Of a DNA stretch of 33,210 nt, positions 10,895 to 32,815 are shown one piece after another (position 1 is the first letter of the stretch; every line of letters starts with the position of its first letter). The notes under the pieces were generated by a model. The model did no database searches. It worked only from the letters and a program-made list of their open reading frames with translations, and was not told the DNA's origin. The position numbers were made by a program, and so were the translations under genes. This stretch comes from Candidatus Coprenecus merdipullorum (GTDB lineage: Bacteria; Bacteroidota; Bacteroidia; Bacteroidales; UBA932): positions 1 to 33,210 of the forward strand of contig DWYD01000031.1 of assembly GCA_019118865.1 (NCBI GenBank). The letters run 5' to 3'.

Positions 10895-12031
10895 TCATAT
10901 TCCGGACACCTGTTCCTTGTTATCGACAGGTGTAGCATATATCCGCAGAAAAATCTCCATGAGCACAGACATATCATAGTCCTTGAACTGCTCCAGAAGC
11001 ATCATACGCTGCCTGAAGGCCTCCTTCTGCGCCTTCGTGTAGTTGTCCGAAAAGCGGCACTCGTGATGAAGAAGGTCGTGCGCTATGAAATTGTTGGGGT
11101 ACAGACGGAAAGCCTTCCACAGTCTTCTGTCTATGATCCTCGCCACTATATTGTAGTACTCGTTCCTGGAAGTATCCGACACCCTCGAAAGCTCATCCTC
11201 CGTAACGAGAGGGCAGAACTCCATATGCACCCTGCCCTTCGGCTGGCTGATTCCGGTGAGAATGCTGTTCAGGTCCTCGCCCTTTTTCTTGACATATGCC
11301 CCGAAACGCGAGGCATACAGTTCCAGAGTCTTGAGGATGTCGCATGGCTCCCACTCGTAGGAAACTGCCAGCGGCACTATGTGCAGCTCCGCGAGAGCCT
11401 TGACCTTATTCTCCTTGCAGCTCATGCAGAACATGTTGATTATACCCTTGTCCGTCACGTCGCTTCCGTCCTTTGTCCGTCCGTTGCGCTGGGCTATCCA
11501 CACCGAGCTGCGCTTTTCGGTGAGAGTGTACCGCAGATACTCGGACAGATGCATCGAATTGCGGTAGAAATCCTTGATGTTGCCTCCGCGCACCACCTTG
11601 AACATCTTGTTGGACTTGCCGATATCCACCAGAAGCGTACTGCTCATAAGATTGGAGCCGAACGTTATCTCAGTACTGTCGTAGCCGTTGGCAAGGAGGA
11701 CATACTGCAGGAGAGTAGAGTCCAGCATGATATCCCTGTGATTGCCGATGAACAGATACGGCTCTCCATGACGGAGTATATCTATTCCGGAATAAGTGAA
11801 TCCGTCAGTGGTCGTATCAATTATTCTTTCCGTAAGAGGCATCATCACCTGCGTCTGAAGGTCGTAAGTTCCGCGTATACCGCAGACCAGGGAGCGCACC
11901 TCCTCCAGCGGCCTGTCAGGAAAAATGAAAGAGGCGATGGCGGGGAAATTCCCGTCCGCCGCAATCCTCTCCATTGCCGCGGGCAGTTCCTCGTCCGTAT
12001 AGGGACGGATATCGTCAAATCTATTGTCCAT
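10895..12031 (-). CDS. PlsC-like glycerol/lysophospholipid acyltransferase
   Basis: 378 aa; YLFIGNHRDIMLDSTLLQY and SSVWIAQRNGRTKDGSD, Bacteroidota acyltransferase motifs. Start overlaps the stop of the upstream AMP-ligase gene. Confidence 0.8.
   Translation of the reverse strand: MDNRFDDIRPYTDEELPAAMERIAADGNFPAIASFIFPDRPLEEVRSLVCGIRGTYDLQTQVMMPLTERIIDTTTDGFTYSGIDILRHGEPYLFIGNHRDIMLDSTLLQYVLLANGYDSTEITFGSNLMSSTLLVDIGKSNKMFKVVRGGNIKDFYRNSMHLSEYLRYTLTEKRSSVWIAQRNGRTKDGSDVTDKGIINMFCMSCKENKVKALAELHIVPLAVSYEWEPCDILKTLELYASRFGAYVKKKGEDLNSILTGISQPKGRVHMEFCPLVTEDELSRVSDTSRNEYYNIVARIIDRRLWKAFRLYPNNFIAHDLLHHECRFSDNYTKAQKEAFRQRMMLLEQFKDYDMSVLMEIFLRIYATPVDNKEQVSGI
10906..10933. repeat. 8-bp perfect inverted repeat ACACCTGT/ACAGGTGT at the 3' end of the last operon gene
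   Basis: ACACCTGT (10906-10913), 12-nt loop, ACAGGTGT (10926-10933); no U-tract after it on the minus strand. Confidence 0.5.
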
Positions 12032-13319
12032 TTTTGCGTTTATCTATGATTGTCATCGGTTTTCGGCTTTTTGCCGGAAGCGTGAGACCGGCGATCTCGT
12101 CCATAGGCAGCAGCTCTATCTCAGGGGTTACACGCAACCTCGAGCGGAAACGGTCCTTGAGATCCTTGACGGCATCAAACTCCGGCCTGCGGGAGAGTCC
12201 CACCTTGACCAGGACCTCATCCGTTCCGGTATCATTGCTGCTGATGATGATGGCGAAGTTCCCCACATAGTCCGTCCCGTCCAGCACATCCTTTATGGCC
12301 GGAGGATACAGGGTAGTGCCCTTGAGCTTTATCATGTTGTGCCTGCGGCCGTAGAGAGGGCTGAGACGGTAGGAATACCTGCCGCAGCGGCATCTGTCAG
12401 TATATTTGGCCGCTATATCCCCCGTTTTGAAACGCAGCAGCGGCATGCCCTCCACTCCGAGGGTTGTAACCACCACTTCTCCCGGCTGTCCGTCCGGCAC
12501 AGGCAGTCCGTCCTCGCCGACGATCTCCACTATAATAAGCTCAGGATGCACATGCCCCCCCATCCCGTACTCACACTCCGAGAAAGTCGCGCTCATCTCG
12601 GTGGAGGAATAGGTGGAGAACAGCCGTACGTTGTCCCACTCATCCTGAATCCGGCGGCCGAGGAGATTGAGTTCCAGGTTGTGGTCCCTGAGCGCCTCGC
12701 CTATGCCTATGATACGCCTGATGCTGGAGGCACGGTGGTCTATGCCATGCTCCTTGGCATACTGAACCAGCCTGAGGATAAAGGAGGGCACACACATGAT
12801 AGTATCCGGCCTCAGCTCCCGGATAGAGTCCCACTGAAGCTCCGGAATACCGTTGCCTACCCGTATCACTCCCACTCCCATCTTCCTGACACCCATGAAA
12901 TAGGCCAGTCCGGCCATAAACCGCTTGTCCATCGTCACCATCAGCTGAAGTCTGTCTCCCGGACGCAGTCCCGCGCACTCGAAGGACTTCTGCTCATTGT
13001 AGGCCAGCCGCTCCAGGTCCCTGTCGGTACAGCAGAAATTGACAGGTCTTCCCGTCGTCCCGGATGTCGTCACGAAATCCGCCACCTTCTCCACGGGGCA
13101 GCACAGGAAGTCCCGGTTGTATGTGCTGAGGTCGTTCTTGTCTGTGAACGGGATAAGGGAAAGGTCCTCCAGATGCCTGATTTCCCGCACGTCTATCCCG
13201 TGCGCGGCAAACATCCTGCCGTAAAACGGAGAATGGGCCGCGATATACTCCAGCTGACTGCGCAGCAGGCCTTCCTGGTATTCCTTGATCTCTTGAGGTG
13301 ATTTAAATTCTATATCCAT
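12021..13319 (-). CDS. PaaK-like AMP-dependent acyl/aryl-CoA (or ACP) ligase
   Basis: P-loop FVTTSGTTGRPVNF; VVTTLGVEGMPLLRFKTGD; GRRHNMIKLKGTTLYPPAI as in phenylacetate-CoA ligases. Start taken at MDIEFKS (track ORF begins at 13331). Confidence 0.88.
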   Translation of the reverse strand: MDIEFKSPQEIKEYQEGLLRSQLEYIAAHSPFYGRMFAAHGIDVREIRHLEDLSLIPFTDKNDLSTYNRDFLCCPVEKVADFVTTSGTTGRPVNFCCTDRDLERLAYNEQKSFECAGLRPGDRLQLMVTMDKRFMAGLAYFMGVRKMGVGVIRVGNGIPELQWDSIRELRPDTIMCVPSFILRLVQYAKEHGIDHRASSIRRIIGIGEALRDHNLELNLLGRRIQDEWDNVRLFSTYSSTEMSATFSECEYGMGGHVHPELIIVEIVGEDGLPVPDGQPGEVVVTTLGVEGMPLLRFKTGDIAAKYTDRCRCGRYSYRLSPLYGRRHNMIKLKGTTLYPPAIKDVLDGTDYVGNFAIIISSNDTGTDEVLVKVGLSRRPEFDAVKDLKDRFRSRLRVTPEIELLPMDEIAGLTLPAKSRKPMTIIDKRKNGQ

Positions 13320-14829
13320 AGTAGTTCTCATTTATTTTATCCACGATAGTTCCGAAACCTTCCACGGCCTCAACTGTCTCTATGGCAGTAAGAGGGACTC
13401 CGCATATGCCGTGCAGGTTGACATTCTGCCCTGTAAGCAGAAGATTCCGTACCTTGGTGCGCACGGGAATGTAGGACAGTGGAAGATTCTGACTGTCCTT
13501 TGCATAACCGTACATGCTTCCCTCGAAGGTACCGTAATAATCCCTGACTGTCAGCGGAGATGCGCCGAAGGCATACTCTATGCAGTCCTCTATCCCCGGA
13601 TATCTCTCCGCCAGCCTTGAGAGGACCTTGGCGACATGAGCCTCCTTCCACCGCAGGTAGTCATCACCACGGTGTCCTACATATGTATTCTCCCAGCGCC
13701 GTACCTCCCCGAAATCCATGATGCAGTTCACCGTCATCCTGTCCGCCCAAGGTCCCTGACCGGAATCAGGAGGCGTCATGGCCATGAAACCGGCCGGCCA
13801 CAGTTCCCCGCGACAGCAGTCCCCGGCCCAAAAATGGCCGTAGTCCACCTGACAGTACTCAGGCGAAGGCAGGTAGGGGAAGGTATTCTTCTTGAATTTT
13901 ATAAAGACTACGAAGGCCGAACAGGTATTCGGAATACTCCTCAGACGGTTGCCATATGATGGAGGGAAGGCGCCTTTGTCGGTGATATCCAGAAGCGACA
14001 GCGGGTGTATCGCCGAGACATAGATGTCTCCCCTATACACCTTCCCGTCCTCCGCCTCCACGGCTGTCACGGCCCTGTCCTCCACCCTGACCCTGACAGC
14101 CTTATTTCCCGTCAGCACTCTTCCGCCCCCTTTCCCGATTACCCCGATGAGTGCGTCGGCCAGCTGCTGGCTGCCCCCGTTGAACCTGGACGAGCCATTG
14201 ATATACAGCACATTGATAACTGCGTGGACATAGGCCGGAGTGTGACCTTTCCAGCCTCCGTACATCGTATTCATATAGGCCAGGACATCCTTGAGCCTGG
14301 AATCCCTGACAAACCTGTCTATAAGCTGGTCCGCCGGCATGAAGAAGTCCTCGCTGTGGGCCAGGTTGCTCCTTCCGGCGTTGCGGACATGGAAAAGCGG
14401 GATCTCACCGGCAAGGGCATATAGACGGTCCACATAGGCGGCAATACCCTCTTTCTCCTCCGGAAATTCCCGACTGAGAGACTCCACGAAGCCTTCCCGT
14501 CCGGATGCCAGGCGGTAAGTCCTGCCGTCGGAAAGGTAAGTTATGGTATCCATACAGTCCGCAGGAGTATCCGTCATCGAGAGACTGTCCATGATGCCGA
14601 GCCAGGAGCAGATGCGCCTGAGCGATCCGCCTTCTCCGAATCCTCCCACCACATGCATTCCGGTATCGAAGACAGTGCCCCGGCAGGAAAAGTTCTGGAG
14701 TCCCCCTCCCGCCGTACGGTTCTTCTCCAGCACCGTCACGGCATATCCCAGACGCGAGAACATCGCCCCTGTAAAAAGACCTCCGAGTCCACCTCCTATT
14801 ATAACTACTGTTTTACCGTCTTTATTCAT
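13303..14829 (-). CDS. FAD/NAD(P)-dependent oxidoreductase, phytoene desaturase/CrtISO/RetSat-like (copy 1)
   Basis: Real start MNKDGKTVVIIGGGLGGLFTGAMFSRLGYAVTVLEKN at 14829 (the 640-aa track ORF starts too far upstream). C-terminal NLLLTGQNVNLHGICGVPLTAIETVEAV. Confidence 0.87.
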   Translation of the reverse strand: MNKDGKTVVIIGGGLGGLFTGAMFSRLGYAVTVLEKNRTAGGGLQNFSCRGTVFDTGMHVVGGFGEGGSLRRICSWLGIMDSLSMTDTPADCMDTITYLSDGRTYRLASGREGFVESLSREFPEEKEGIAAYVDRLYALAGEIPLFHVRNAGRSNLAHSEDFFMPADQLIDRFVRDSRLKDVLAYMNTMYGGWKGHTPAYVHAVINVLYINGSSRFNGGSQQLADALIGVIGKGGGRVLTGNKAVRVRVEDRAVTAVEAEDGKVYRGDIYVSAIHPLSLLDITDKGAFPPSYGNRLRSIPNTCSAFVVFIKFKKNTFPYLPSPEYCQVDYGHFWAGDCCRGELWPAGFMAMTPPDSGQGPWADRMTVNCIMDFGEVRRWENTYVGHRGDDYLRWKEAHVAKVLSRLAERYPGIEDCIEYAFGASPLTVRDYYGTFEGSMYGYAKDSQNLPLSYIPVRTKVRNLLLTGQNVNLHGICGVPLTAIETVEAVEGFGTIVDKINENYYGYRI

Positions 14830-16313
14830 TGCTGTGATTTTATCTGTTTGAAAATATTCTCCATACCCAGCAGTTCGGCGGCACATATCATCGAGCCGAC
14901 CAGCACTCCGAGCGTTCCGTGCGAGTTGATGCTCTGACCGCACAGGAAGAGATTGGGAATCCTGGTGCGGTGCGACACCCTTCCGGCAGCACCTGCCGTG
15001 ACATTTTTCTCTATGCCGTACATCGAGCCGTCCACAGTCCCTGTATAATCCCTGTATGTCAGAGGAGTGGAAGTCCAGTAATCCTGTACTGCCGCACCGA
15101 GCCCCGGGAAGTCCCTCTCCACCACATCCATCAGCCGTGCAGCCGCGCGGCGCTTGAAATCCAGATACTGCTGAGGACGATGCCCAGTAACCGTATCGCT
15201 CCACTGTTCCACGTCCCTCATCCACATATAGGCCAGCACCACCCCCGTACGGGCATGGGTCATTCCCGGGACATCACAGTGATGCATGTACATGTAGCTG
15301 CCGGGCCAGGACTGACTGTCATAGTCCTCGCTGCCCCACGGAGAATTCCCGGTGTAACCGAAATAATTGGCATTGAGATAGGGGCATGCCCCGTCCCTGA
15401 AGCGCAGGTAGACGGCAAAACAGGAAACAGTATTGGGCAGAGAGGCTATTCTCCTGCGGTAGGCCGGTCTCAGAAGCCGTGCGTCCAGCATTTCCAAAGT
15501 CCGGACCGGATGCACTGACGAGATAACAAAATCCCCGTCCAGCCTCCTGCCGTCATCAGCCTCCACCCCCCTGCACAGACCTCCGCCGCAAATTATCCTG
15601 GAAACCCGGAAACGGCTTATGACCCTTCCGCCGTACCGTTCGAGAGTCCCGCGCAGAGCCGAAGCGAGCGTCCCGCCTCCGTCTGCGATACGGAATGCGC
15701 TGCTGTTGTAGAAATTGAAAATCAGAGCATGGGTGAGAAACGGCGTAATGTTCCTGCGGGCCGCATACAGAGGCTGGTCTCCGCAGAGGACATCCCGCAT
15801 AAGAGGATCCCTTACCAGCGAGTCCATCACGGTATTCATCGCCATGGTCCCCGGTCCGTCCGGCCTGAAGACCCTTGAGGTGTCGAAATCATAGAACTGA
15901 GAAGACCCTGCAATCTCCGTCACTGTATCGTAATACCTTGCCGCACAATCCTTTTCTGAAGGAAAATACTCTCCCATCCTCTCGATGAAAGCCTCCCTTC
16001 CGTTCGGTATGCTGAAACGGTTCCCGCCCAGGGATATGACGTTGTATCCGTCCGTATCCAGCCGGTCCAGCGTGATGCCGTCAAGTACCTCCAGCCACTG
16101 CAGGACCCGGTAAAGCTGCTGGCCCGGATCCGCACTTCCGACATAGTGCAGCCCCGTCTCGAAACGGGCTCCTTTCCTGTAGAAGCACTGCAGGCAGCCT
16201 CCTATCACCGCCTCCTGTTCCACCACCGTCACATCATAGCCGTTGCGGGCCAGCATGACGCCGACGGAAAGTCCTCCGAGGCCTGAGCCGATTACTATCA
16301 CCTTCTTTCTCAT
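14826..16313 (-). CDS. FAD/NAD(P)-dependent oxidoreductase, phytoene desaturase/CrtISO/RetSat-like (copy 2)
   Basis: MRKKVIVIGSGLGGLSVGVMLARNGYDVTVVEQ; NLFLCGQSINSHGTLGVLVGSMICA. 4-nt overlaps at both ends with its neighbours. Confidence 0.88.
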   Translation of the reverse strand: MRKKVIVIGSGLGGLSVGVMLARNGYDVTVVEQEAVIGGCLQCFYRKGARFETGLHYVGSADPGQQLYRVLQWLEVLDGITLDRLDTDGYNVISLGGNRFSIPNGREAFIERMGEYFPSEKDCAARYYDTVTEIAGSSQFYDFDTSRVFRPDGPGTMAMNTVMDSLVRDPLMRDVLCGDQPLYAARRNITPFLTHALIFNFYNSSAFRIADGGGTLASALRGTLERYGGRVISRFRVSRIICGGGLCRGVEADDGRRLDGDFVISSVHPVRTLEMLDARLLRPAYRRRIASLPNTVSCFAVYLRFRDGACPYLNANYFGYTGNSPWGSEDYDSQSWPGSYMYMHHCDVPGMTHARTGVVLAYMWMRDVEQWSDTVTGHRPQQYLDFKRRAAARLMDVVERDFPGLGAAVQDYWTSTPLTYRDYTGTVDGSMYGIEKNVTAGAAGRVSHRTRIPNLFLCGQSINSHGTLGVLVGSMICAAELLGMENIFKQIKSQQ

Positions 16314-19300
16314 ATTTCCTTCCTCCATTCCCTTAGTTCCAGCACCATATCCACAGCAGTGCCGGCATGAGCACCGTGCACGAAATGCAGGTTGGCCGGC
16401 TGCGCGGACGTATTGGCGGCCACCAGGAAGGACTCCTCATCCGACTCACACCCGTAGACCTGCACCTGCGGATGCACCAGGGCCAGAGCCCAGGCCACCT
16501 CGCCCTGACCGCAGCCCCGGACTTCTATGCTCCTGACATCCCCGGGAATGCAGTCTATCTCCCGGCAGTGCCGTGCCGCCAGCCTCAGGGCCATGCGGCT
16601 GGCAGTCTCCACATCACGTCCCTTATACAGATATTTATGCCGGATATAGTCCGAATAATAAAGGGTATTCTCCCTCTTCGAGCATATCTCCCCGTATCTT
16701 GCAGCGAACTGCTTCCTCACAGCCGATGTCAGCTTCGCGAGAGTAGGGAAAAGCGACAGGTCCCGGTACGGAATCCTCTCCCCCACCTCCATGTAGATGC
16801 TGCCGCGCCGCAGCATGAAGTCCCGCTTGGGCAGTACATGTCCCGCCCCGTGGATATACACCGGCAGCACGTCCAGACCCAGCTCGCGCGCTATATAGAA
16901 CGCCCCCTTGTGGAACCGTCCTACCGACAAGTCCAGGGATCTGGTCCCCTCCGGGAAGACCATGACGGAATATCCGCGCCCTACCATCGTCCTGAGCCTG
17001 GGCATCAGCTCCTCCACCCCGTCCGAGACCGAATAGAAGTCCAGACGGCGGATGATACGGCTGTAGAGCGGATTGCGTGAGGCCCAGCGGTTGGTGAGTA
17101 TCACCATCCTGGGTGTCAGCATCATGATGCACATCAGGTCCAGGTGGGACTGGTGGTCGGCGATGATCACGGAAGGCCTCTCAAACGTCTCGCCTCCTGG
17201 ATTGCTCATGCTGAAACGCACTCCCGGCACATGCCGGATGATAAATCCGGACACCCGGCTGATGAGGCGGTGATACCTCAGGTCCACCTCGTCGGTACGT
17301 CTGCGGGTATGGAAATAGAACCATGTCCAGGGCAACAGCACAAGGAAGGCCGCCACAAGATAGAACACCAGAGCCCACAGCGAGTACGCCAGTCTCCGGA
17401 TGGTCAGGGGCAGTTCCCTGACCTCCCCCTTCCTGCGGGTGAGGAAACGGAATACCAGCGGAGGGAGGTAGAACGCCATCAGCACCACCACCGTCATTCC
17501 GACCACAGTCACCTCAGCAAGGGACTTCATGGCCGGATGACGGGCCAGCACCAGCATTCCTATAGCTATGAACATGATCACCGCGGAGAGCAGCACGCTG
17601 TCCTTGTACGAGGACAGCACCTTGCGTCCGTAGGCATACTCGTGCATCAGGCCCTCCGTCACGAATATGGTATAGTCGTCTCCCTGGCCGAAGATGAAGG
17701 CCGCGAGGATGATATTTACGATGTTGAAAGTGATGCCGAAGACATCCATGATACCGAGGATCCACACCCAGCCCACAGCCAGCGGCAGGAATGCCATGAC
17801 TGCGGTCTCGACACGCCCGAAAGAGAAGCACAGGAAGAGGAACACCACCGCACTGCACACCGCTCCGACAAAATCGAAACTTTCCGACAGGATCTCCACC
17901 AGACGGCTGCTTACATCCTCCGACGTGAAGAACAAGCCGGTCCCGGTCGCACGCAGCGCCTCCACCCGTCCTCCGTCAGGGCATGACAGCAGGTTCACAA
18001 TCTGCACCCCGCTGTCCGAGGGCAGGACATAAGTCCCTTGAAAGTTCAATGACAACGGCCCGAATTCATCGGCCTCCAGAGGTCCTGGATCCGCTGCCAG
18101 CAGTGCCTCGAAAGGCGCGAACATCTTCTCCGGCAATCCCTTCTCCGAGGCCGCCTCCGCAACCTGTTCCGACAGACCGGGATGACGTTCCAGGAAACCG
18201 CGCCACATCCCGAGTATCTCCTCCTGCCGCTCCACCGAGGGCAGAAAGCCGTTGATTCCGCGCACTGACGCACGGGGTTCTGTCTCCCCGACCGCCTCAA
18301 GCATCAGCTCATTGCTGCGCAGAGCCTGCTCCATGTCCTTTCCCTCCACCACCGCATATACCGTGACAGCACTGTCCCCTGAAGACGCCACGGACGAAGT
18401 CAGAAGGGCCATATCCCGCTTCTGTGCCTCCGTCATATAATTGATATTCATCAGATTGGAGTCAAACGAGGCACCCCGTCCGAAAACCAGCAGTCCCAGG
18501 GTCACAAGGACTATGGCCGCAAATACGGCTTTCCGCACAGGCGCCGGGAAGCTGATGCTGCGCCGCAGGAACAAAGGAGCTGCCTCTCCCCTGCCGCAGG
18601 CCCGTCGGGGAGCCAGCACCGGCAGGAATATCAGGACAAACAATATGGTCCCGAGCAGCATCAGGGCCCCGAAAAGCCCCAGGTCCCTCATGGCCTCCGC
18701 CTTCAGGAACAGCAGGCAGAGAAAGGCGCTCACCGTTGTGATATTGCCCGTCAGCATGGGAGAGACTATGTCGCGGAGCACCTCGCGCGGACCGGAAGCA
18801 TATTTGAGATAGTCGAAATAATGCAGGGGATAATTGACGGCAATACCGACCAGCACCGTGCCTATGCCTATGACTATCAAAGACACCGAACCCTTGATCA
18901 GAGCCATCAGGCCCAGGGCCGCGCACAGCCCGAAGAGAACGGATACAAAGGTCCATACTATGCTGGAAGGACGCCGGAAGGCCAGGGCGAGCACCAGGAG
19001 AATCAGCGCTGCGGCCAGGGAGGCGGACAGCACCGTATCGCGGCGGATCCGGTCGGCATTGGCCACCGCTATCAGCGGAGCGCCTGCTGCGGACACCCTT
19101 ACCCCTGGACAGAGCTCCATAGTACTGTCCATCGCTTCCTCCAGCAGCCCGGCCACGGCCTTGTTGCCCATGGTCTCGCTGCCGCCGAAAGGAGATGTCA
19201 CAAATGCCAGGGCCACCGTACCCGACCTGTCGGTCACATATCCGTCCACTGCCTGGAACTCCCCGTCTGGGGCCAGGGCCGCGAGACGCTGCAGCACCGG

Positions 19301-19843
19301 CGTAAAAAGTCCCAGGGGATCATATCTGAGCACAGCTCCTGCCATTCCGGTCCCCGGAAGCAGCATCATGATCCCTGCGTTGTCCATCCGGCTGCCGATA
19401 TAGCCCCCGACAGCCAGCAGCGAATCCATTCTAGAGATATCCTCAGGCTGGAGAAAATATGGAAAATGCGAGGCTGCGAAATCCAGCATCCCCGCCATGT
19501 TGTCCTCATTCTGACGCAGCTGCACACCGGCAAGCAGCCCGGACGTATCCTTGTCCGCCAGTATCTGGCCGAAAACATCCACCGCGTCGTAGAGCCCGTC
19601 CACGGCAAGACTGTCCTCCGACCTGAACACTACGGTAATCCGTCCCTGGTCCGACATCCGCGAGTAGACCCCGGCATAGCGTTCTGTCCCGGGATCCACA
19701 GGGAGGAATTCGGAAATATCCTCACCGTAATGCATCCGTGAAGCCAGGAGAACCAGGACTCCGACCGTTACGAGCAGGATAATCCATGTCAGGGTGCGGT
19801 GCCCCGACAGACGGTCGTAGATATGGAGAAAAAACCTGCTCAT
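16310..19843 (-). CDS. MMPL/RND-family exporter fused to a PlsC acyltransferase domain and a C-terminal methyltransferase-like Rossmann segment
   Basis: 1177 aa. Two membrane-repeat blocks with IIGQGDD-type motif (AAFIFGQGDDYTIFVTEG); PlsC motifs SVIIADHQSHLDL and VMVFPEGTRS; C-terminus IEVRGCGQGEVAWALALVHPQVQVYGCESDEE resembles SAM-MT motif I. Confidence 0.88.
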   Translation of the reverse strand: MSRFFLHIYDRLSGHRTLTWIILLVTVGVLVLLASRMHYGEDISEFLPVDPGTERYAGVYSRMSDQGRITVVFRSEDSLAVDGLYDAVDVFGQILADKDTSGLLAGVQLRQNEDNMAGMLDFAASHFPYFLQPEDISRMDSLLAVGGYIGSRMDNAGIMMLLPGTGMAGAVLRYDPLGLFTPVLQRLAALAPDGEFQAVDGYVTDRSGTVALAFVTSPFGGSETMGNKAVAGLLEEAMDSTMELCPGVRVSAAGAPLIAVANADRIRRDTVLSASLAAALILLVLALAFRRPSSIVWTFVSVLFGLCAALGLMALIKGSVSLIVIGIGTVLVGIAVNYPLHYFDYLKYASGPREVLRDIVSPMLTGNITTVSAFLCLLFLKAEAMRDLGLFGALMLLGTILFVLIFLPVLAPRRACGRGEAAPLFLRRSISFPAPVRKAVFAAIVLVTLGLLVFGRGASFDSNLMNINYMTEAQKRDMALLTSSVASSGDSAVTVYAVVEGKDMEQALRSNELMLEAVGETEPRASVRGINGFLPSVERQEEILGMWRGFLERHPGLSEQVAEAASEKGLPEKMFAPFEALLAADPGPLEADEFGPLSLNFQGTYVLPSDSGVQIVNLLSCPDGGRVEALRATGTGLFFTSEDVSSRLVEILSESFDFVGAVCSAVVFLFLCFSFGRVETAVMAFLPLAVGWVWILGIMDVFGITFNIVNIILAAFIFGQGDDYTIFVTEGLMHEYAYGRKVLSSYKDSVLLSAVIMFIAIGMLVLARHPAMKSLAEVTVVGMTVVVLMAFYLPPLVFRFLTRRKGEVRELPLTIRRLAYSLWALVFYLVAAFLVLLPWTWFYFHTRRRTDEVDLRYHRLISRVSGFIIRHVPGVRFSMSNPGGETFERPSVIIADHQSHLDLMCIMMLTPRMVILTNRWASRNPLYSRIIRRLDFYSVSDGVEELMPRLRTMVGRGYSVMVFPEGTRSLDLSVGRFHKGAFYIARELGLDVLPVYIHGAGHVLPKRDFMLRRGSIYMEVGERIPYRDLSLFPTLAKLTSAVRKQFAARYGEICSKRENTLYYSDYIRHKYLYKGRDVETASRMALRLAARHCREIDCIPGDVRSIEVRGCGQGEVAWALALVHPQVQVYGCESDEESFLVAANTSAQPANLHFVHGAHAGTAVDMVLELREWRKEI

Positions 19844-21605: not shown

Positions 21606-21607
21606 AT

Positions 21608-24103: not shown

Positions 24104-24118
24104 ACTTCCTGCCGCCGC

Positions 24119-24379
24119 TTATTTTTTTCTATGGGCCGTGATATATCCGGCCATGGTGTCGAGCGATGTGAATATCTCACGGCCCTGAGCAGGATTGTCC
24201 AGCTTTATGCCGTATTTTTTCTCCATGAGCACTATCAGCTCCAGGGCATCAATCGAGTCCAGACCGAGTCCCGAGTCTCCGAACAGAGGCGCCGAAGGAT
24301 CGATGTCCTCCGGACGGACGTCCTCCAGATTGAGGGCGGAGATAATCTCATTCTTAAGTTCCTGTATCAGTTCTTCCAT
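24119..24379 (-). CDS. Acyl carrier protein
   Basis: 86 aa; phosphopantetheine site GLGLDSIDALELIVLMEKKYGIKL. Confidence 0.93.
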   Translation of the reverse strand: MEELIQELKNEIISALNLEDVRPEDIDPSAPLFGDSGLGLDSIDALELIVLMEKKYGIKLDNPAQGREIFTSLDTMAGYITAHRKK

Positions 24380-24403
24380 ATCTGCTTTTATTTTATCTGT
24401 TGT

Positions 24404-25051
24404 TCAATGAATTATTCCTAAAATCCCGGCCATTTCCCGCAGCCGGCCGGCCAGCTGCTCCGGAGAATACTGTCCCCGGCCTACAGTAAACATCAGCGAC
24501 TCGAAGTCGTCCGCATCCCTGCACTCCAGCCACCCTCCCGTGACCGAAGAGGTCACCCGGTCCGCGAAGGCATCCAGGACCCTGTCCGCCACCGCCTCAG
24601 GGCTGAACTCATCCATCATCCAGCAGGAGGTCTCCCCGCACCATCCGTTGCGTATGGCTATCTCCCCCGTCACGATATTGGGCAGGGTATAGACAAATAC
24701 CGCCGGCGAAGGGAAAAACTGCGAGCGGTCCTGTATCGTCGCCTGAAACTTCCGGTCCGTGACCAGCGACCCGCTACATCCGCAGATGACCAGGGCCCTG
24801 TCCTCCCTGCGGACCAGCGGCCGGCCTTTCGGATCCAGCTCCTCCGCGGAGCCGTCGCCCTCAAGCGAGGCCAGCAGACGCGAGGTCACAAAACCAAGGC
24901 GGCAGAGCGGGTCCATCTTGAAAAATTTCGGATACTCCGGACACACTGTCTCCTTGTACAGGGCCGTCAGCATCCTGCTGCCTGTCTCCGCGGGCACGCG
25001 CTCCCGTCCCGCAACCACTATCCTGTCCGATGTCAGTCCTACCCAGTCCAT
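24404..25051 (-). CDS. Half-length ketosynthase-like protein
   Basis: 215 aa; ALVICGCSGSLVTDRKFQATI...SPAVFVYTLPNIVTGEIAIRNGWCGETSCW resembles the N-terminal half of a KS fold and stops before the nucleophile and His motifs. Confidence 0.65.
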   Translation of the reverse strand: MDWVGLTSDRIVVAGRERVPAETGSRMLTALYKETVCPEYPKFFKMDPLCRLGFVTSRLLASLEGDGSAEELDPKGRPLVRREDRALVICGCSGSLVTDRKFQATIQDRSQFFPSPAVFVYTLPNIVTGEIAIRNGWCGETSCWMMDEFSPEAVADRVLDAFADRVTSSVTGGWLECRDADDFESLMFTVGRGQYSPEQLAGRLREMAGILGIIH

Positions 25052-25057
25052 ATTTAT

Positions 25058-26221
25058 CTACATTTTCTGAAACAGCATGGCCGCATTGCACCCTCCGAAT
25101 CCGGAGAGAGCCTTGATAAACGCCGTCCTGTCCGTCTTTCTGGAAGAAGACGATACAGACAGCGGCACCCTCACTCCCAAAGTGGAGAATCCCCTGGTAG
25201 CAGGCACCGTACCCCTGTCGACAGCTTTCATAGACAGGATGGTCTCCAATACTCCGGCGGCCCCCATGGTATGGCCGTAATAGCCCTTGAATCCCACTAC
25301 GGGGACACCCAGGAGCCCGGCACCCGCAACGGCCTCTCCCTCCATCGAGTCATTGTAGTCCGTGGCTGTTCCGTGCAGGCTCAGAAAGGCCAGTTTATGA
25401 GGGGGAAAATCCCCGAGTGCGTATTTCAGCGCCTGCCGGCACCCGTCGCCGGTGCGGGAAGGTGCGGAGATATGGTTGGCGTCGTTGCGGACAGCCCCTC
25501 TTACCGCGGCCCATTGTCCGGGAACAGCATCCGAGCTGTCACGGGCCTCGAATACGAGAGCTGCGGCAGCCTCCCCCGGATTAAGTCCCCGGCGGTCCTT
25601 GTCAAACGGCCTGCACTCCTCCGGCGAAACGGCCATAAACGACTGAAAGCCCGAGACGATGAAAGGCGACTGCTCGTCCGCCCCGGCCACTATGACATGG
25701 CTGTACCGGCCTGACTGCAGGCTGCGGTGGGCTGCCAGACATGCGCAGAGTCCCGAGATGCAGGCGTTGGACACCACCAGAGGAGGATTGGGACAGCCGA
25801 AACGGCGGCAGGCCACCTCCCAGGCCGCCCGGCTGAGCGGCAGCCTTGACTCCGGAAACTCGCCCGGGTTCTCCAGCAGGGATACATTGCCCTTGGTAGT
25901 GGAAATCACGAACAGAGTGCGGGGGGACGCCGGATCCACGCCGGTACCCCTCATGGCCCTTGTGACAGAGAGGATCAGCATCTTCTCGAAAAACGTGTAA
26001 TCATCCCCGATGTTCTCCTCCGCACAGGCATCCGCGAACCTCTCCCTGTCCAGCAGGGAGGCCGTAAAGTCAAACGGCAGACCGCAGCGGCCGCTGCAAC
26101 TGCGCAGGCCCGAGCGGAGCTCCTCCACAGCAGCGACGTTTTCCTCTGTAGTGAAGCCCACGGGGGATATGATATTGTCCGCTATCGGGACTGTCAGAAC
26201 ACCTTCCATCTCTTCTTCCAT
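25058..26221 (-). CDS. Beta-ketoacyl-ACP synthase (complete Cys-His-His)
   Basis: 387 aa; VVSNACISGLCACLAAHR, LSLHGTATDYND, GFKGYYGHTMGAAGVLET. Start may be M5. Confidence 0.92.
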   Translation of the reverse strand: MEEEMEGVLTVPIADNIISPVGFTTEENVAAVEELRSGLRSCSGRCGLPFDFTASLLDRERFADACAEENIGDDYTFFEKMLILSVTRAMRGTGVDPASPRTLFVISTTKGNVSLLENPGEFPESRLPLSRAAWEVACRRFGCPNPPLVVSNACISGLCACLAAHRSLQSGRYSHVIVAGADEQSPFIVSGFQSFMAVSPEECRPFDKDRRGLNPGEAAAALVFEARDSSDAVPGQWAAVRGAVRNDANHISAPSRTGDGCRQALKYALGDFPPHKLAFLSLHGTATDYNDSMEGEAVAGAGLLGVPVVGFKGYYGHTMGAAGVLETILSMKAVDRGTVPATRGFSTLGVRVPLSVSSSSRKTDRTAFIKALSGFGGCNAAMLFQKM

Positions 26222-27048
26222 TCCTCATAGAACGGCGGGTTGGTCCACACCAGTTTATAATCCTTGTCCATGAACACCTGCACCGAGTGTCCCGTCGCAG
26301 CGAGAGACCCGTCGGAAGTGTCCCTTATCTCATAGTCAAATACTATCTTGGCCGCCTCGGTAGGACGGTAGAATATCGTCACTTCCGGTTTCGAGCCGTA
26401 GAGCAGCGGCTTCCTGTACTTGAAGTCCAGTTCCACCAGAGGAGCATAGTAGCCGTTTCCGAAAATATCCATATAGCCCAGGCCGTACCTGGCACCGAAG
26501 GCCTCCCTGGCATCCTCAAAATACTTGACATATGAGCCGTGCCATACGACGGACATCGAATCCACCTCGCTGAAACGTATCTTCAGGGGCAGCGTCTCCG
26601 ACAGAGGGCCGTCATCGCGCAGGGCTATCTTGAGCCCGGCGGAAGCCACCGTACCGGCGGCATCCTCCACCACTGCATCGGCCAGCGTCATGTTCATCAC
26701 GCTCTCCCTCTCGGTCACTGTCGTCCTGAGGACAGCGCCCACCGCAGGACGGCGGATAATCCGGAAATCACGGACAGCCCCTATCACCCCGATCTTCACA
26801 GGACGGTCAAGATTGAGCCATCCGATGCGGGCCGCACAGGTCTGGGCCATGTTCTCCAACAGACCGTATGACGTAAGGGCTCCGTCCTCCACCAGGATAC
26901 AGTCCGGTCTGACCACGAACTCCGTCACGGCCGTCCTGTCCCCCGTCTCCAGCAGGCGGTCCACCATCACGAAGGGAGGCCGCTGCGGGATAAGCTTCAA
27001 AATAGGTATGTCCTGTACTTCTGTCATTTCAGTTTTTCCAAAAATCAT
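26194..27048 (-). CDS. Fusion: FabZ/ApeP-like hotdog domain (Glu half) plus 4HBT/YbgC-like thioesterase
   Basis: N-terminus ILKLIPQRPPFVMVDRLLE...SYGLLENMAQTCAARIG keeps the FabZ Glu but lacks the GHFP His; C-terminus IRFSEVDSMSVVWHGSYVKYFEDARE is a YbgC/4HBT signature. Alternative start at 27027. Confidence 0.83.
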   Translation of the reverse strand: MIFGKTEMTEVQDIPILKLIPQRPPFVMVDRLLETGDRTAVTEFVVRPDCILVEDGALTSYGLLENMAQTCAARIGWLNLDRPVKIGVIGAVRDFRIIRRPAVGAVLRTTVTERESVMNMTLADAVVEDAAGTVASAGLKIALRDDGPLSETLPLKIRFSEVDSMSVVWHGSYVKYFEDAREAFGARYGLGYMDIFGNGYYAPLVELDFKYRKPLLYGSKPEVTIFYRPTEAAKIVFDYEIRDTSDGSLAATGHSVQVFMDKDYKLVWTNPPFYEEWKKRWKVF

Positions 27049-27913
27049 AAAAATTGAACCATTGCTCCGGATACCTCCGCACTATATCCTCCAGCACCGG
27101 GACGAACGCCTCTGCCAGGCTCCGCTGCGGGTCAGGACACCTGCTGTCCGGCTGCAACCTCCTGACAAACACCTTGTACGCCTTCGCCGAGATTTTGATG
27201 ACAAAGACCGCCAGCAGGGGAACCTCCCGGCTGACCGCCAGTGCGAACGGACCCTGAGGAAACGATGCTTCCTTTCCCATGAAATTGAGCCGGAGTGTCC
27301 TTGACCCGGGGAAACACCTGTCCGCCGACATCGTCACTATCTCGCCTGAAGCGAGCGCGCCGCTGAGAACAAACAGATAGGACATATCGGAGGATATAGG
27401 GATCATGCGGACGTTGGTGCGTGAGAACATCCCCTCGCGGCCGTACATCACCGAATCATTCTCTCCGCCGAAGACCAGCGCGTTGATCCGTTTCCGGTCG
27501 GAGGTGAGAGTATAACCCGCCAGCTCGAAACTGCCGACATGACTGTTGAGCATCATGAATCCTCCGTCAGCCTCATTGAGCCGGACAAACTCCTCATACC
27601 CGTCCATCTCCACGTCGAACCGCCTTCCGGCATACATCGCGAACCGGTCCACGATAACCTGGGCGAAACGGTAGTGATTGAGCCAGCACATCAGGAACGA
27701 CTTCCACGCCCCCATACCCAGCCTGCTGCGGAAAAGACCGTAGGACGCCCGGTAACCGCTGCGGTTGAATATCATGTAGAACGGCACGAAACATGCCGCC
27801 ACAGGATACACTGCCCTTACGTCCACATGCCTCAGCAGCCGGACCAGCATCCTGAGCATCAGCGGACTGCCGTCAGTCCGTCCCTGCCACAGCCTCTTTC
27901 CTTCACTCTCCAT
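27029..27913 (-). CDS. LpxL/HtrB-like lysophospholipid acyltransferase
   Basis: 294 aa; GFMMLNSHVGSFELAGY (HX4E motif) and EIVTMSADRCFPGSRTLRLNFMGKEASFPQGPFALA. Confidence 0.85.
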   Translation of the reverse strand: MESEGKRLWQGRTDGSPLMLRMLVRLLRHVDVRAVYPVAACFVPFYMIFNRSGYRASYGLFRSRLGMGAWKSFLMCWLNHYRFAQVIVDRFAMYAGRRFDVEMDGYEEFVRLNEADGGFMMLNSHVGSFELAGYTLTSDRKRINALVFGGENDSVMYGREGMFSRTNVRMIPISSDMSYLFVLSGALASGEIVTMSADRCFPGSRTLRLNFMGKEASFPQGPFALAVSREVPLLAVFVIKISAKAYKVFVRRLQPDSRCPDPQRSLAEAFVPVLEDIVRRYPEQWFNFYDFWKN

Positions 27914-27927
27914 CCCGGTGTCCGGAC

Positions 27928-28170
27928 TCAGCAGGTCTTCCTTCCGATGTAGTCGCAGAAGTCCTTGAGTGTCTTCACGCCGGACATCTCCTCCGGCTTG
28001 ATCTTGAACCCGAAGTTCTTCTCGACTATCACCACTATATCCACAAAATCCAGACTGTCAATCCCGAGATCCTCCTTGAGACGGGCGTCCGGCACTATGA
28101 CATCCTCATCGACCTCCAGGTCCTCTATCAAGAATGTCCTTACTTTCGATTCTATCTCTTCTCTGTTCAT
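27928..28170 (-). CDS. Acyl carrier protein
   Basis: 80 aa; LKEDLGIDSLDFVDIVVIVEKNFGFKI phosphopantetheine site. Confidence 0.95.
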   Translation of the reverse strand: MNREEIESKVRTFLIEDLEVDEDVIVPDARLKEDLGIDSLDFVDIVVIVEKNFGFKIKPEEMSGVKTLKDFCDYIGRKTC

Positions 28171-28185
28171 ATCTTCTTATAGTTT

Positions 28186-29271
28186 TTATTTGATCTTACA
28201 TTCAAGTATACTGTGCCCCAGGCCTATGCCGTCGTAAATCTCCTCCACGGCAAGACCCGAGGCCTCAACCGCACCCCGCAGATCCTCCAGACTGTACATC
28301 TTGCTGCGGCCGTTGGCCAGCGCCGTGAAATAGGGGCTGATCTGAGTCAGGCACATGGCCGCAGTCTCATATCTCTGACGGTCCCAGAGCGTCTCCATGA
28401 TATAGAGCCGGGCTTCGCCGTCCATGATCCTCACCGCCTTGCCCAGGATGGAACGTATCTCCTTCAGGGAGAAACAGTCCAGGAACTGGGACATCCATAC
28501 CGCGTCAATACGGGGCGAGGAAGGAAGGACGGAACTGCCGTCCAGCATGTCCACCGGCCACGCGTCTATCCGGTCCGAACCGGGATGCCCCGCCGTCTCC
28601 CTGCGCATCATCTCTATCTGGGGCGGCAGGTCGGCTATGGTCACCCTCACGTCAGGATCGTGCTCCACGCACTTGAGGGCCCATGCCCCCAGATTGCCGC
28701 CCACATCCAGTATCCTGTGCGGCCTGCGGGCGAACACTATCTCCAGCGCCCTGTCGAAGGAATTGTCCGAATAAAAATGGTCAAAGGCGAACCAGCTGCG
28801 CTGCACCTGCTCCGGGAGCTGCGAGAGTCCCTCGTATATGGTCTTCCAGCCGCCGAAATGCCTCAGTCCTGCGGGCTTACCATCCCTGAGCGCCTCCTCG
28901 AGGTCAAAAAGGCCGATATAGTTCACGTCGTGATTGAAATCCATATTGACCCTCACCATCTCGTCCGTCAGCATGAACCATCCGGTCTTAGACAGCGAGT
29001 AACGTTTTGTGTCAAAGTCATAAAGCACTGTGCCGGCCGTCAGGGAGGATTCCAGAAGCACCTTTGCGGCATATTCTGAAAAACCGGACTCCGCGGATAT
29101 CTCCTCTACTGTCATCCCCCGGTCGCTGTCCCGGAGCATGGAGAAGATTCCCGAATGAAGCATAATCCTGGATATCTGGAATATCACCGGACCGAAAGCT
29201 ATCATCTCCGCCGCCTTCTGGGCGTCTCCGGCTGAAAGCCTTTCCCTTGAATATATCTTCCTATAGTCCAT
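28186..29271 (-). CDS. SAM-dependent O-methyltransferase (AOMT/caffeate-type family)
   Basis: 361 aa; RILDVGGNLGAWALKCVEHDPDVRVTIADLPPQIEMMRRE, typical of family 2 O-methyltransferases. Confidence 0.85.
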   Translation of the reverse strand: MDYRKIYSRERLSAGDAQKAAEMIAFGPVIFQISRIMLHSGIFSMLRDSDRGMTVEEISAESGFSEYAAKVLLESSLTAGTVLYDFDTKRYSLSKTGWFMLTDEMVRVNMDFNHDVNYIGLFDLEEALRDGKPAGLRHFGGWKTIYEGLSQLPEQVQRSWFAFDHFYSDNSFDRALEIVFARRPHRILDVGGNLGAWALKCVEHDPDVRVTIADLPPQIEMMRRETAGHPGSDRIDAWPVDMLDGSSVLPSSPRIDAVWMSQFLDCFSLKEIRSILGKAVRIMDGEARLYIMETLWDRQRYETAAMCLTQISPYFTALANGRSKMYSLEDLRGAVEASGLAVEEIYDGIGLGHSILECKIK

Positions 29272-30490
29272 CTGTATTGCGAAGTACCAGGGCGCTGTTG
29301 GTACCTCCGAAGCCGAAGGAGTTGGACAGCACCGTATTGATTTTCATATCTATCGTCCTGGGCGTGATGTTCAGGCCGGCGGCATGCTCGTCCGGACGCT
29401 CCAGGTTGATGTTGGGAGCGGCGAAGGAGCCGCGCATCATAATCACCGAGTAGACCACCTCGCTGGCCCCGGCCATCCAGCACTCGTGTCCGGTCATGGA
29501 CTTGGTGGAGCTGATGACCGCCTTAGTGTCTCCGAAGAGCCTGCGAAGCGCCATTGCCTCGCACATATCTCCCTGAGGGGTAGACGTTGCGTGGGCGTTG
29601 ATGTAGTCTATGTCCGACGGATTCAGGCCTGCGTCCTGCAGTGCCCTGCTCATGGCTGTTACCGAGCCGTCGTCGTTGGGCTGGGAAATACCCATCCCGT
29701 TGGAGGAGAAACCGTAGCCGGTCACCTCCGCAAGGATCACTGCTCCCCTGCGCACAGCGCTGTCGTAGCTTTCCAGCAGCACCGCTCCGGCACCGCCGCT
29801 CGGCACCAGACCGTCCCTGTCCGCATCGAAGGGCCTGGAGGCCTTCTGCGGGTCGTCCATCCTCGTGGAGAAGGACGAGAGGGCATCGAACGTTGCCATC
29901 GAGTAGTAGTTTGTCTCCTGGGCTCCTCCACAGAGTATCATGTCCTGCAGACCGCTGCGGATGAACATATAACCCAGTCCGATGGAGTGGGAACCGCTGG
30001 CGCAGGCCGCACTCACCGTGAAGTTGATGCCCTTGAGACGGAAGATGGTGCTCAGGTTCATGTTCACGGTGGAGTTCATCGACTGGAAGATAAGTCCGGA
30101 CCCCAGCATAGCGGAGTCGTGCTTGCTGTCCATTATCCTGGCTGCCTCTATCACCGGCTTGGCCGATGAATCGTTGCCGAAGAGGATACCTACCTCGTGG
30201 GTATCGAGCCACTGATCATCCACTCCCGCCATCGCAAGCGCCTCCCGGGACGCCATATAGGCATACTCGGCCTCTTCCGAGAGGCCTACTCTCTGCCGGC
30301 GGTTGAGCAGGGACTTGAGCTCTGGACGCGGCACGATGCCTGTGAGCGACGAACGGTAGCCGTACTCCAGTCTCTCGGGCTCCACCCCGATACCGGAGCG
30401 GCCCTCGTAGAGCGACTGACGGACCTCGTCCACATTGGTTCCGATGCAGGACCAGATGCCTATTCCGGTTATAACTACTCTATTTCTCAT
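29261..30490 (-). CDS. Beta-ketoacyl-ACP synthase, FabF/FabB-like
   Basis: 409 aa; VSAACASGSHSIGLG, INAHATSTPQGD, STKSMTGHECWMAGASE. Confidence 0.95.
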   Translation of the reverse strand: MRNRVVITGIGIWSCIGTNVDEVRQSLYEGRSGIGVEPERLEYGYRSSLTGIVPRPELKSLLNRRQRVGLSEEAEYAYMASREALAMAGVDDQWLDTHEVGILFGNDSSAKPVIEAARIMDSKHDSAMLGSGLIFQSMNSTVNMNLSTIFRLKGINFTVSAACASGSHSIGLGYMFIRSGLQDMILCGGAQETNYYSMATFDALSSFSTRMDDPQKASRPFDADRDGLVPSGGAGAVLLESYDSAVRRGAVILAEVTGYGFSSNGMGISQPNDDGSVTAMSRALQDAGLNPSDIDYINAHATSTPQGDMCEAMALRRLFGDTKAVISSTKSMTGHECWMAGASEVVYSVIMMRGSFAAPNINLERPDEHAAGLNITPRTIDMKINTVLSNSFGFGGTNSALVLRNTDGL

Positions 30491-30502
30491 AAAAATACAT
30501 TA

Positions 30503-31228
30503 CTAATAAAGACCTCCGTTGACCGACACCGTCTGACCGGTGATGTAAGCAGCTTCCTCCGAAGCCAGGAAGGCCACCAGGGCGGCCACCTCCTCCGGCT
30601 TGCCGAAACGACCGGCGGGAATCATCTTCCTGAGCTCCTTCTCGTCCAGGTCGGCCGTCATGTCCGTGGATATGAAACCCGGAGCTACGCAGTTGACCGT
30701 AACTTTTCTGGGCGCGACCTCCTGGGCCAGTGCTTTCGTGGCTCCGATGAGACCGGCCTTGGCGGCAGAATAATTGCTCTGTCCGGGCAGTCCTTTCAGG
30801 CCGGAGAGCGAACTTATGTTGATTATGCGGCCGTAGCGGCTGGTGAGCATATTCTTGAGCACCCGGCGGGTGACATTGAAGAATCCTCCGAGGGTCGTGT
30901 CCAGCACGCTGTTCCACTGGGCATTCTGCATGAATATCATCAGACTGTCCTGGCGGATACCTGCGTTGTTGATCAGGATGCCGATGTAGTCGTCCGGATG
31001 GGCGGCTTCCCATCCCTCCAGGGCAGCGTCCACCGCCTCCGTATCCGAGACGTCGAAACGCAGCAGCTCCGCGGTTCCTCCGGCGGAAGCGATCATCGCC
31101 GCCGTCTCCTCGGCCTTGGCCTGATTGGAAGTATAGTTGACAATGACGGGGATGCCCTCTCCGGCCAGCCTTACGGCCACGGCTCTGCCTATTCCCCGCG
31201 AGCCTCCGGTAACCAGCGCGTACATCAT
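30503..31228 (-). CDS. fabG: 3-oxoacyl-ACP reductase (SDR)
   Basis: 241 aa; ALVTGGSRGIGRAVA, NNAGIRQD, SSLSGLKGLPGQSNYSAAKAG, ITGQTVSVNGGLY. Confidence 0.95.
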   Translation of the reverse strand: MMYALVTGGSRGIGRAVAVRLAGEGIPVIVNYTSNQAKAEETAAMIASAGGTAELLRFDVSDTEAVDAALEGWEAAHPDDYIGILINNAGIRQDSLMIFMQNAQWNSVLDTTLGGFFNVTRRVLKNMLTSRYGRIINISSLSGLKGLPGQSNYSAAKAGLIGATKALAQEVAPRKVTVNCVAPGFISTDMTADLDEKELRKMIPAGRFGKPEEVAALVAFLASEEAAYITGQTVSVNGGLY

Positions 31229-32778
31229 AGCCGTTCAATCTTGTATTGGTCCGTAGTTTTGTTCCTGAGGTAATCCTCCACCATCGCTATTTTCTCATAG
31301 AAAGGCTCGTCCTCCCTGAAGGCAGGGAACATCTCCCTGATCCTGCGGTATTCGGCCCTCGTGGCGGGAGCGAGACGGTCCTCGCATCCGAGGCAGTCGG
31401 TCGCCTGGGCGAGAGCCATGTAGAGAATGGAAACGACCTGCCATGCGTTGTCTATGACGCGGCGGCAGATCAGGGCGGAGTTGGTGCCCATGCTGACGAT
31501 ATCCTGGTTGTCGTTGTTGTTGGGTATGCTGTGCACATAGTTGGGCATGGCCAGGGTCTGGCACTCGGCGGTAGTGGAAGTCGCCGTGAACTGGCAGGCC
31601 TGCATACCGTAGTTGAGCCCCAGTACTCCGAGATTGAGGAACGGAGGCAGGATACCGTTGATACGGTCGTGGAAGAGGTAGTTGAGCTGCCTCTCCGCCG
31701 TCATGGCCAGACGTACCACGGCAGTCTTGACCTTGTCCTCCTCCAGGGAGATGTAGTCGCCGTGGAAGTTGCCTCCGTGGTAGACGTTTCGGGAGACGGG
31801 GTCGACTATAGGATTGTCGCTGGCGGAGTTGAACTCGTCCTCGAGCACCTTCCCGGCAGCCATGACAGTGTCGTAGACCGGTCCTATCACCTGCGGCACG
31901 CAGCGCAGGGAGTAATAAGGCTGCACCTTGTGCTCAAACGTACTCTGGTTGCTGTGTCCGCTGTCGTAGAGCTCGTGCTCCCGCTTGCACAGGCAGCGGC
32001 TGCCGCTGCTCATCTCCCGCATCATCGAGGCCACGGCCTGCTGACCGGGATGACGCCGGCACTCATTGAGGCCTTCGGACATCAGGTCATCAAAGGAGGA
32101 GGCTATCTCATTAGTCCAGACAGAAGCCAGTACAAAACTGTAGATCAGCCTCATGGCATAAATGTGATTAACCACGCCTATTCCGGACATCACCGATGTA
32201 CCGTTGGTCAGGGCCAGTCCCTCGCGGATATGGATTTCAAGAGGCTCCAGCCCGCACTCCCGGAGCACATCTCCAGCATCACGCCACTCCCCGCGGTAGT
32301 GGACCCTCCCCTCCCCGATCATGGCCAGGGACATATGGGCCAGCTGCACCAGGTCTCCGCTCGCGCCCACGCTTCCGTGCTCCGGAATCATGGGGCAGAT
32401 GCCCCGGTTGATGAACTCCGCAAGCAGACGCACCACATCGGGATGGACTCCCGAGCGGGCCTGCAGGAAAGTGCCCAGGCGGGCTGTCATAGCCGCCTTG
32501 ACGCACACATCCTCAAGCGGCTGCCCTGCACCCGTGGAATGGCTGCGGATGATATTGTACTGAAGTTCCTTCAGCCTGTCGTCATCCACCCGCCACTGCG
32601 CCATGGGACCGAAACCGGTATTTATTCCGTATATGATCTTATCCTTGGAGAATTCTTCCAGAAACCTGTAGCACCCGCCGACCTCATCCAGCACGGCCGG
32701 AGACACACAAAGAGTTTCTCCTCGAAATAGAATCCTCTCTATATTTCTGATTGACAGTTTAGATGTTTCCATTATCAA
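31225..32778 (-). CDS. Aromatic amino acid ammonia-lyase (HAL/PAL/TAL superfamily)
   Basis: 517 aa; MIO-forming ASG in GSVGASGDLVQLAHM; YGINTGFGP; YSLRCVPQVIGPVYD; NQDIVSMG. Confidence 0.94.
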   Translation of the reverse strand: MIMETSKLSIRNIERILFRGETLCVSPAVLDEVGGCYRFLEEFSKDKIIYGINTGFGPMAQWRVDDDRLKELQYNIIRSHSTGAGQPLEDVCVKAAMTARLGTFLQARSGVHPDVVRLLAEFINRGICPMIPEHGSVGASGDLVQLAHMSLAMIGEGRVHYRGEWRDAGDVLRECGLEPLEIHIREGLALTNGTSVMSGIGVVNHIYAMRLIYSFVLASVWTNEIASSFDDLMSEGLNECRRHPGQQAVASMMREMSSGSRCLCKREHELYDSGHSNQSTFEHKVQPYYSLRCVPQVIGPVYDTVMAAGKVLEDEFNSASDNPIVDPVSRNVYHGGNFHGDYISLEEDKVKTAVVRLAMTAERQLNYLFHDRINGILPPFLNLGVLGLNYGMQACQFTATSTTAECQTLAMPNYVHSIPNNNDNQDIVSMGTNSALICRRVIDNAWQVVSILYMALAQATDCLGCEDRLAPATRAEYRRIREMFPAFREDEPFYEKIAMVEDYLRNKTTDQYKIERL

Positions 32779-32807
32779 AATTTGAACGCCCGTCGTTTTA
32801 TAGCGCG

Positions 32808-32815
32808 CAAATTTA
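32808..32815 (-). promoter_or_regulatory. Candidate -7 element (TAAATTTG) for the polyene operon
   Basis: Minus strand TAAATTTG (32815-32808), 29 nt before the lyase ATG. No well-spaced -33 TTTG found. Confidence 0.35.

Follow-up and report, generated by a model that had tools for sequence, protein, structure and literature searches.

A flexirubin-lineage aryl-polyene operon with no resorcinol genes found in Candidatus Coprenecus merdipullorum

Contig DWYD01000031.1 (C7) of Candidatus Coprenecus merdipullorum, whose entire 33,210 bases form the window analyzed here, belongs to a 2.14-Mb metagenome-assembled genome (MAG; G000) that is 81.5% complete. Its minus strand carries 21 consecutive open reading frames (ORFs), from 32772 to 10895, which are probably a complete flexirubin-lineage (flx) aryl-polyene (APE) cluster with the pathway outlined below. 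The likeliest product is a methylated, probably yellow aryl-polyene acid that derives from tyrosine and is mounted on a resorcinol-free lipid of the outer membrane, and not a flexirubin. A preliminary description had proposed an aryl-polyene/flexirubin-type type II polyketide synthase (PKS) operon, and this proposal was supported by a tyrosine-type lyase, by outer-membrane trafficking genes and by ketosynthases (KSs) that group with those of flexirubin clusters.

Gene content and ketosynthases of the operon

The ORF listing, together with Pfam and NCBIfam scans, bore out the ~22-kb, one-strand, 21-gene operon with overlaps that had been described: the gaps between operon ORFs are all ≤24 bp, and most neighbouring ORF pairs overlap. 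Every function named in that description was found, with labels partly refined, but its gene list had omitted a 117-aa EamA/ArnE-ArnF-like ORF (Table 1). Four ORFs, those of FlxA, FlxB, LolA2 and FlxY, exceed the thresholds set for curated flexirubin models, and FlxJ falls slightly under its own. The FlxA protein keeps the MIO triad A137-S138-G139 in an alignment with relatives, and on our own reading its RSHS stretch may correspond to the histidine ammonia-lyase (HAL)-like motif 1 reported for Chitinophaga pinensis FlxA (PMC3992019). The biochemistry of FlxA and FlxY is known from the same source, in which C. pinensis FlxA preferred tyrosine ~1000-fold over phenylalanine in vitro.

Five KS-like ORFs had been described, and all five are present. 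Their labels changed, however: three are intact KSs and two resemble chain-length factors (CLFs), ORF 25058-26221 (KS3) being a KS. In a tree of 37 sequences, KS1, KS2 and KS3 each formed one clade with a protein of G324 (support 99-100), with FabF outside; G324, probably a flavobacterium, is a same-class genome with DarB inside its flx operon. The preliminary description had named best hits of the KS/CLF/dehydratase set in fatty-acid or unrelated PKS families as one result that would contradict it; in the tree, the KSs fell in with their flexirubin-cluster counterparts and apart from FabF. The degenerate ORF 21949-22902 formed a long branch that joined Escherichia coli ApeC with support of 99/96, and its predicted model (mean pLDDT, the per-residue confidence score, 73) has a KS/CLF fold whose top matches are chains of the AntDE:AntF type II PKS complex. 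Since its sequence match to ApeC of Xenorhabdus doucetiae (6QSP chain B) is weak (E=0.02 only), we take its identity as a CLF from the tree and the fold search. ORF 24404-25051 had no Pfam or NCBIfam match and may merit a new family entry. Its model (pLDDT 77, built from a four-sequence alignment) best matched ishigamide CLF chains (6kxe_B, E=8.5e-6) at a modest TM of ~0.49, and this half-KS forms one ORF with KS3 in Phocaeicola vulgatus, G004, G011 and G059. Because of this resemblance and these fusions, ORF 24404-25051 is read, with moderate support, as a CLF-like partner of KS3.

The APE core set is present: a KS:CLF pair, a ketoreductase, two acyl carrier proteins (ACPs), ApeI/ApeP-type dehydratases and a thioesterase, the ApeP and ApeC matches being weak. 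Two dehydratase-like proteins and a thioesterase had been described, and all were found, but the thioesterase and one of the dehydratases are parts of a single 284-aa ORF, 26194-27048 (dehydratase region at residues 18-144, weak Pfam match, E=0.0019; 4HBT at 158-265). The same fusion occurs in the genus-mate G099; in P. vulgatus and G011 each part has an ORF to itself. Trafficking and transfer genes comprise an MMPL exporter, a LolA-like chaperone and ApeD/ApeJ-type transferases. The three acyltransferase modules described earlier proved to be an LpxL-like ORF, the PlsC-type region of the MMPL fusion protein, and the ORF that closes the operon.

The "O-methyltransferase" of the preliminary description is indeed a methyltransferase; it is of the FlxJ/ApeB type (Table 1), and therefore O-methylation is not implied. 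It probably acts on the aryl head. In two FlxJ-less relatives, G041 and G011, another ORF lies between the LpxL-like gene and the thioesterase/dehydratase genes (L047:10781-12145, and joint position 21042-22421 of the G011 flx operon). That of G041 is a B12-binding radical SAM (S-adenosylmethionine) protein, that of G011 is similar at its start, and it is possible that they replace the head-group methylation. The G041 flx operon also holds a second radical-SAM/B12-like ORF (L048:6262-7551; Pfam scores under cut-off). A second ammonia-lyase in G000 (C191:30276-31721; PF00221 611 bits, FlxA model only 317) is probably a housekeeping histidine ammonia-lyase.

Resorcinol genes in the recovered genomes

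The preliminary description had seen no darA- or darB-like ORF. We confirmed this for the window, and searches across the remainder of the recovered genome likewise gave no DarA, DarB or DarH. DarA, DarB and DarH were not found in G099, which is an incomplete MAG, and DarB was not found in the genus-mate G353 (an incomplete MAG searched for DarB only) or in the complete genome of P. vulgatus. Scores against the DarB model were 631-694 bits in five same-class genomes and 508-537 in G041 and G011, and ≤51 bits in all other tested genomes, including G000, G353, G099 and P. vulgatus.

Relatives show where such genes may lie. In G011, of the same family, DarA, DarB and DarH stand at the end of the flx operon; its DarB (537 bits, cut-off 550) passes the StlD/DarB subfamily model, and its DarH is over cut-off. 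DarA is covered by neither Pfam nor NCBIfam, and we identified it because it adjoins DarB and because an ORF like it accompanies the DarB of G324. G041, also of this family, has dar on a contig other than that of flx, and in C. pinensis darAB is at a locus apart from flx (PMC3992019). Because C. pinensis and G041 keep dar elsewhere, its absence from the operon alone cannot exclude a flexirubin. The earlier conclusion of an aryl polyene lipid, not a flexirubin, thus loses its operon-only argument, whereas a product free of dialkylresorcinol (DAR) is made likely by the genome-wide searches in the genus. With resorcinol genes undetected, an aryl-polyene lipid free of DAR is the likeliest product. 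FlxA is over cut-off in 54 of 150 family genomes, with strong DarB in 11 of the 54; flx without detected dar appears to be the common state in the family, in a count inflated by draft genomes.

Eight genomes of genus g22 (G022, G058, G072, G084, G118, G129, G139 and G149) have a strong match to DarH, a BtrH-related acyltransferase, with no DarA among the matches listed, which hints at another role for DarH.

Related clusters and features of the locus

By BLASTP against 18 APE proteins of E. coli CFT073, with gene letters assigned by order along the annotated cluster, 13 window ORFs matched 14 Ape proteins (ApeB, C, D, E, F, I, J, K, L, M, O, P, Q and R). The LolA/ApeL match was marginal (E=0.039), those of ApeP, ApeM and ApeC were weak, and ApeA, G, H and N had no match in the window. 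The apeA-apeR clusters of E. coli CFT073 and X. doucetiae resemble the operon in lacking resorcinol genes. They have a 4-hydroxybenzoate starter and ApeH, whereas the window has the tyrosine ammonia-lyase and FlxY, adds the KS3/CLF-like pair, EamA and the FAD oxidoreductases, splits ApeJ in two (GT2 glycosyltransferase and LpxL-like), and fuses ApeD with ApeM (MMPL1177) and ApeK with ApeP.

With flxA-flxY of C. pinensis and Flavobacterium johnsoniae the operon shares the FlxA, FlxB, LolA2 and FlxY models (FlxJ just under), five KS-like ORFs, MMPL, GT2, acyltransferases and a tyrosine-derived starter. In contrast to those systems, darA, darB and darH were not found in the window genome, and LolB2, a polysaccharide deacetylase and a C45 acyltransferase were not recognisable in the window, which has EamA, an extra PlsC-like gene and a fused dehydratase and thioesterase. 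P. vulgatus ATCC 8482 (BVU_1014 region, PMC5850320) has the same flx core and no DarB in its complete genome; its cluster differs in having KS3 and the CLF-like domain as one ORF, the methyltransferase after the LpxL-like gene and a polysaccharide deacetylase, with no EamA or AT378 match.

The operon recurs in colinear form in G099, shares 97.6% identity with G353 over 9.6 kb, and is conserved in its core in P. vulgatus. FlxA of the window type occurs in 3 of 19 genomes of the genus, and named Bacteroidales that carry it include P. vulgatus, Prevotella micans, Hoylesella saccharolytica, a Parabacteroides and Bacteroides congonensis. BVU_1014 has been placed in an aryl polyene cluster (PMC5850320), and a Bacteroides xylanisolvens cluster is reported to resemble that for flexirubin in C. 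pinensis (PMC12940132). Such clusters are already known from gut Bacteroides and are common in the group, of which the window operon is a further example.

Several candidate markers were rejected. AT378 does not mark DAR-free clusters: it is a family-wide gene (one copy in most family genomes) with an extra copy in G000, which has two, and G041 has AT378 together with dar. EamA is not confined to the genus, as it was also found in 28 of 80 Bacteroidales loci retrieved around FlxA, of which many are not long enough to extend to EamA. Whether the methyltransferase precedes or follows the LpxL-like gene was compared with EamA in 13 loci, too few to use.

Table 1. Features of the operon and its leader, in order of transcription
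Feature	Positions	Strand	Evidence
Leader	32773..32906	-	terminator-like hairpin of upstream gene, then TAnnTTTG promoter-like motif
FlxA-type tyrosine ammonia-lyase, 515 aa	31225..32772	-	NCBIfam NF053541 814 bits, cut-off 700
FlxB ketoreductase, ApeQ counterpart	30503..31228	-	NF053542 398 bits, cut-off 340; 47% to ApeQ
Ketosynthase KS1, best E. coli match ApeR	29261..30490	-	Cys-His-Lys-His intact; tree; BLASTP
FlxJ/ApeB-type SAM methyltransferase	28186..29271	-	NF053543 548.7 bits, cut-off 560; 43% to ApeB
ACP 1, ApeF-like	27928..28170	-	PF00550; 41% to ApeF
LpxL/LpxM-type acyltransferase	27029..27913	-	PF03279; aligns to ApeJ 253-550 (C-terminal part)
Fusion of ApeP-like hotdog dehydratase region and 4HBT thioesterase (ApeK-like)	26194..27048	-	
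Ketosynthase KS3, not a CLF	25058..26221	-	Cys-His-Lys-His intact; tree
Half-KS, putative CLF-like partner of KS3	24404..25051	-	model similarity; fused to KS3 in relatives
ACP 2, ApeE-like	24119..24379	-	PF00550; 54% to ApeE
Ketosynthase KS2, ApeO-like	22895..24103	-	Cys-His-Lys-His intact; tree; BLASTP
Chain-length factor, ApeC-like	21949..22902	-	catalytic Cys and both His lost; tree, fold search, BLASTP
EamA small transporter, ArnE/ArnF-like, 117 aa	21608..21961	-	PF00892; ArnE/ArnF models under cut-off
LolA2 periplasmic chaperone of flexirubin clusters	20994..21605	-	NF053544 145 bits, cut-off 125
Hotdog dehydratase, ApeI-like	20606..20980	-	PF07977; 34% to ApeI over 65 aa
GT2 glycosyltransferase	19840..20613	-	PF00535; aligns to ApeJ 8-235 (N-terminal part)
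MMPL exporter fused to PlsC-type acyltransferase (ApeM + ApeD)	16310..19843	-	PF03176, PF01553
FAD oxidoreductase 1, CrtI/CrtD/carotenoid-isomerase-like	14826..16313	-	
FAD oxidoreductase 2, same superfamily as 1	13303..14829	-	
FlxY 4-coumarate-CoA ligase	12021..13331	-	NF053551 648 bits, cut-off 520
PlsC-like acyltransferase (AT378)	10895..12031	-	weak PF01553

The mechanical ORF starts are too long for several genes. For the lyase, ATG at 32772 is more likely than TTG at 32778; starts at 22902 for the CLF (mechanical ORF from 22971), 21961 for EamA (picked from the length of relatives), 21605 for LolA, 20980 for the dehydratase, and 16313 and 14829 for the two FAD enzymes are likewise the likelier ones. 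The promoter-like motif of the leader, TAAATTTG (32815-32808), is a consensus match only. Downstream of the operon the window holds prfA, and a release-factor-like ORF lies on the same side in G099. On the upstream side the contig breaks off within a putative NuoE-like gene; the fragment has no Pfam match, and its G099 counterpart adjoins larger hydrogenase/Nuo-like ORFs. Recent transfer is not indicated by base composition, because the GC content of the operon (0.58) is near the ~0.55 of two other loci of G000.

Proposed pathway and alternative explanations

In the proposed pathway, FlxA would deaminate tyrosine to 4-coumarate, which FlxY would then activate. The coumaroyl starter would pass to the carrier proteins and be extended with malonyl units by the type II ketosynthases, namely KS1 and the pairs KS2:ORF 21949-22902 and KS3:ORF 24404-25051, and reduction by FlxB with ApeI/ApeP-type dehydration of each unit would yield a conjugated polyene. 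The FlxJ/ApeB-type enzyme would methylate the aromatic head, probably at the carbon of the ring that neighbours the hydroxyl. Attachment of the polyene acid to its lipid or glycolipid may fall to the thioesterase domain, GT2 and the LpxL-type and PlsC-type acyltransferases, and the MMPL protein and LolA2 would bring the product to the outer membrane. Gene content, orthology, catalytic residues and the absence of dar from the recovered genomes come from the present analysis, whereas the lyase and ligase reactions, the APE KS:CLF pairing (for APE enzymology see PMC8253772), head-group methylation and outer-membrane location are taken from literature on relatives. We infer the methylation site, chain length, anchor structure and a role as a pigment that guards against oxidative stress.

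Several points weigh against a resorcinol-free APE product. No product has so far been isolated from this lineage, and sequence alone does not tell the substrate choice of FlxA (PMC3992019). No LolB2 or ApeN counterpart is recognisable in the window. The same kind of envelope genes occurs in the dar-carrying clusters of G011 and G324, so these genes alone are no proof of a non-DAR anchor. All three operon-bearing members of the genus are incomplete MAGs (81.5, 87 and 91%), and thus a distant dar locus could be missed in each; if completeness is taken as the per-locus chance and independence is assumed, the chance of missing it in all three is, as a rough inference, ~0.2%. A true flexirubin, with darA and darB at another locus missing from the assemblies, would fit the four curated flexirubin models over cut-off and the separate dar loci of C. 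pinensis and G041. However, DarA, DarB and DarH were not found in G000 or G099, nor DarB in G353, while dar-less flx clusters also occur in the complete P. vulgatus and strong DarB in so few of the FlxA-bearing family genomes; we consider this explanation improbable. Still further from the data is a housekeeping or specialised fatty-acid locus. The best NCBIfam matches of KS1 and KS2 are FabB/FabF-type models, but these scores are well under cut-off, the tree sets the KSs apart from FabF, FlxA and FlxY would have no role there, and apparent FabH and FabF genes lie elsewhere in the genome (C191). We rejected this explanation, which is highly improbable, on the KS tree and the FlxA and FlxY scores.

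A more specific form of the resorcinol-free APE reading places the polyene acid on a sugar-containing phospholipid, with GT2 and the ArnE/F-like EamA supplying or moving a polyprenyl-linked sugar. GT2 and the LpxL-like ORF jointly match E. coli ApeJ, EamA matches the ArnE/ArnF models, and GT2 has a weak match (67 bits, cut-off 370) to a model for polyprenyl-phospho-GalNAc synthase. Xenorhabdus APE lipids reportedly carry a galactosamine-phosphate-glycerol group. This form is possible but doubtful, however: the scores to sugar-related models are far under cut-off, and GT2 is also found in dar-carrying clusters.

As a cluster, the operon is unremarkable within its group, and interest centres on the lipid anchor. 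We tentatively suggest that many gut and rumen Bacteroidales may carry an aryl polyene derived from tyrosine on a glycolipid anchor that lacks resorcinol and is assembled by GT2, an ArnE/F-like flippase and acyltransferases. If this is true, flexirubin proper would be the version of the pathway with an added dar module, and flx clusters with and without dar in one family would allow a direct comparison of polyene attachment in gut Bacteroidales.

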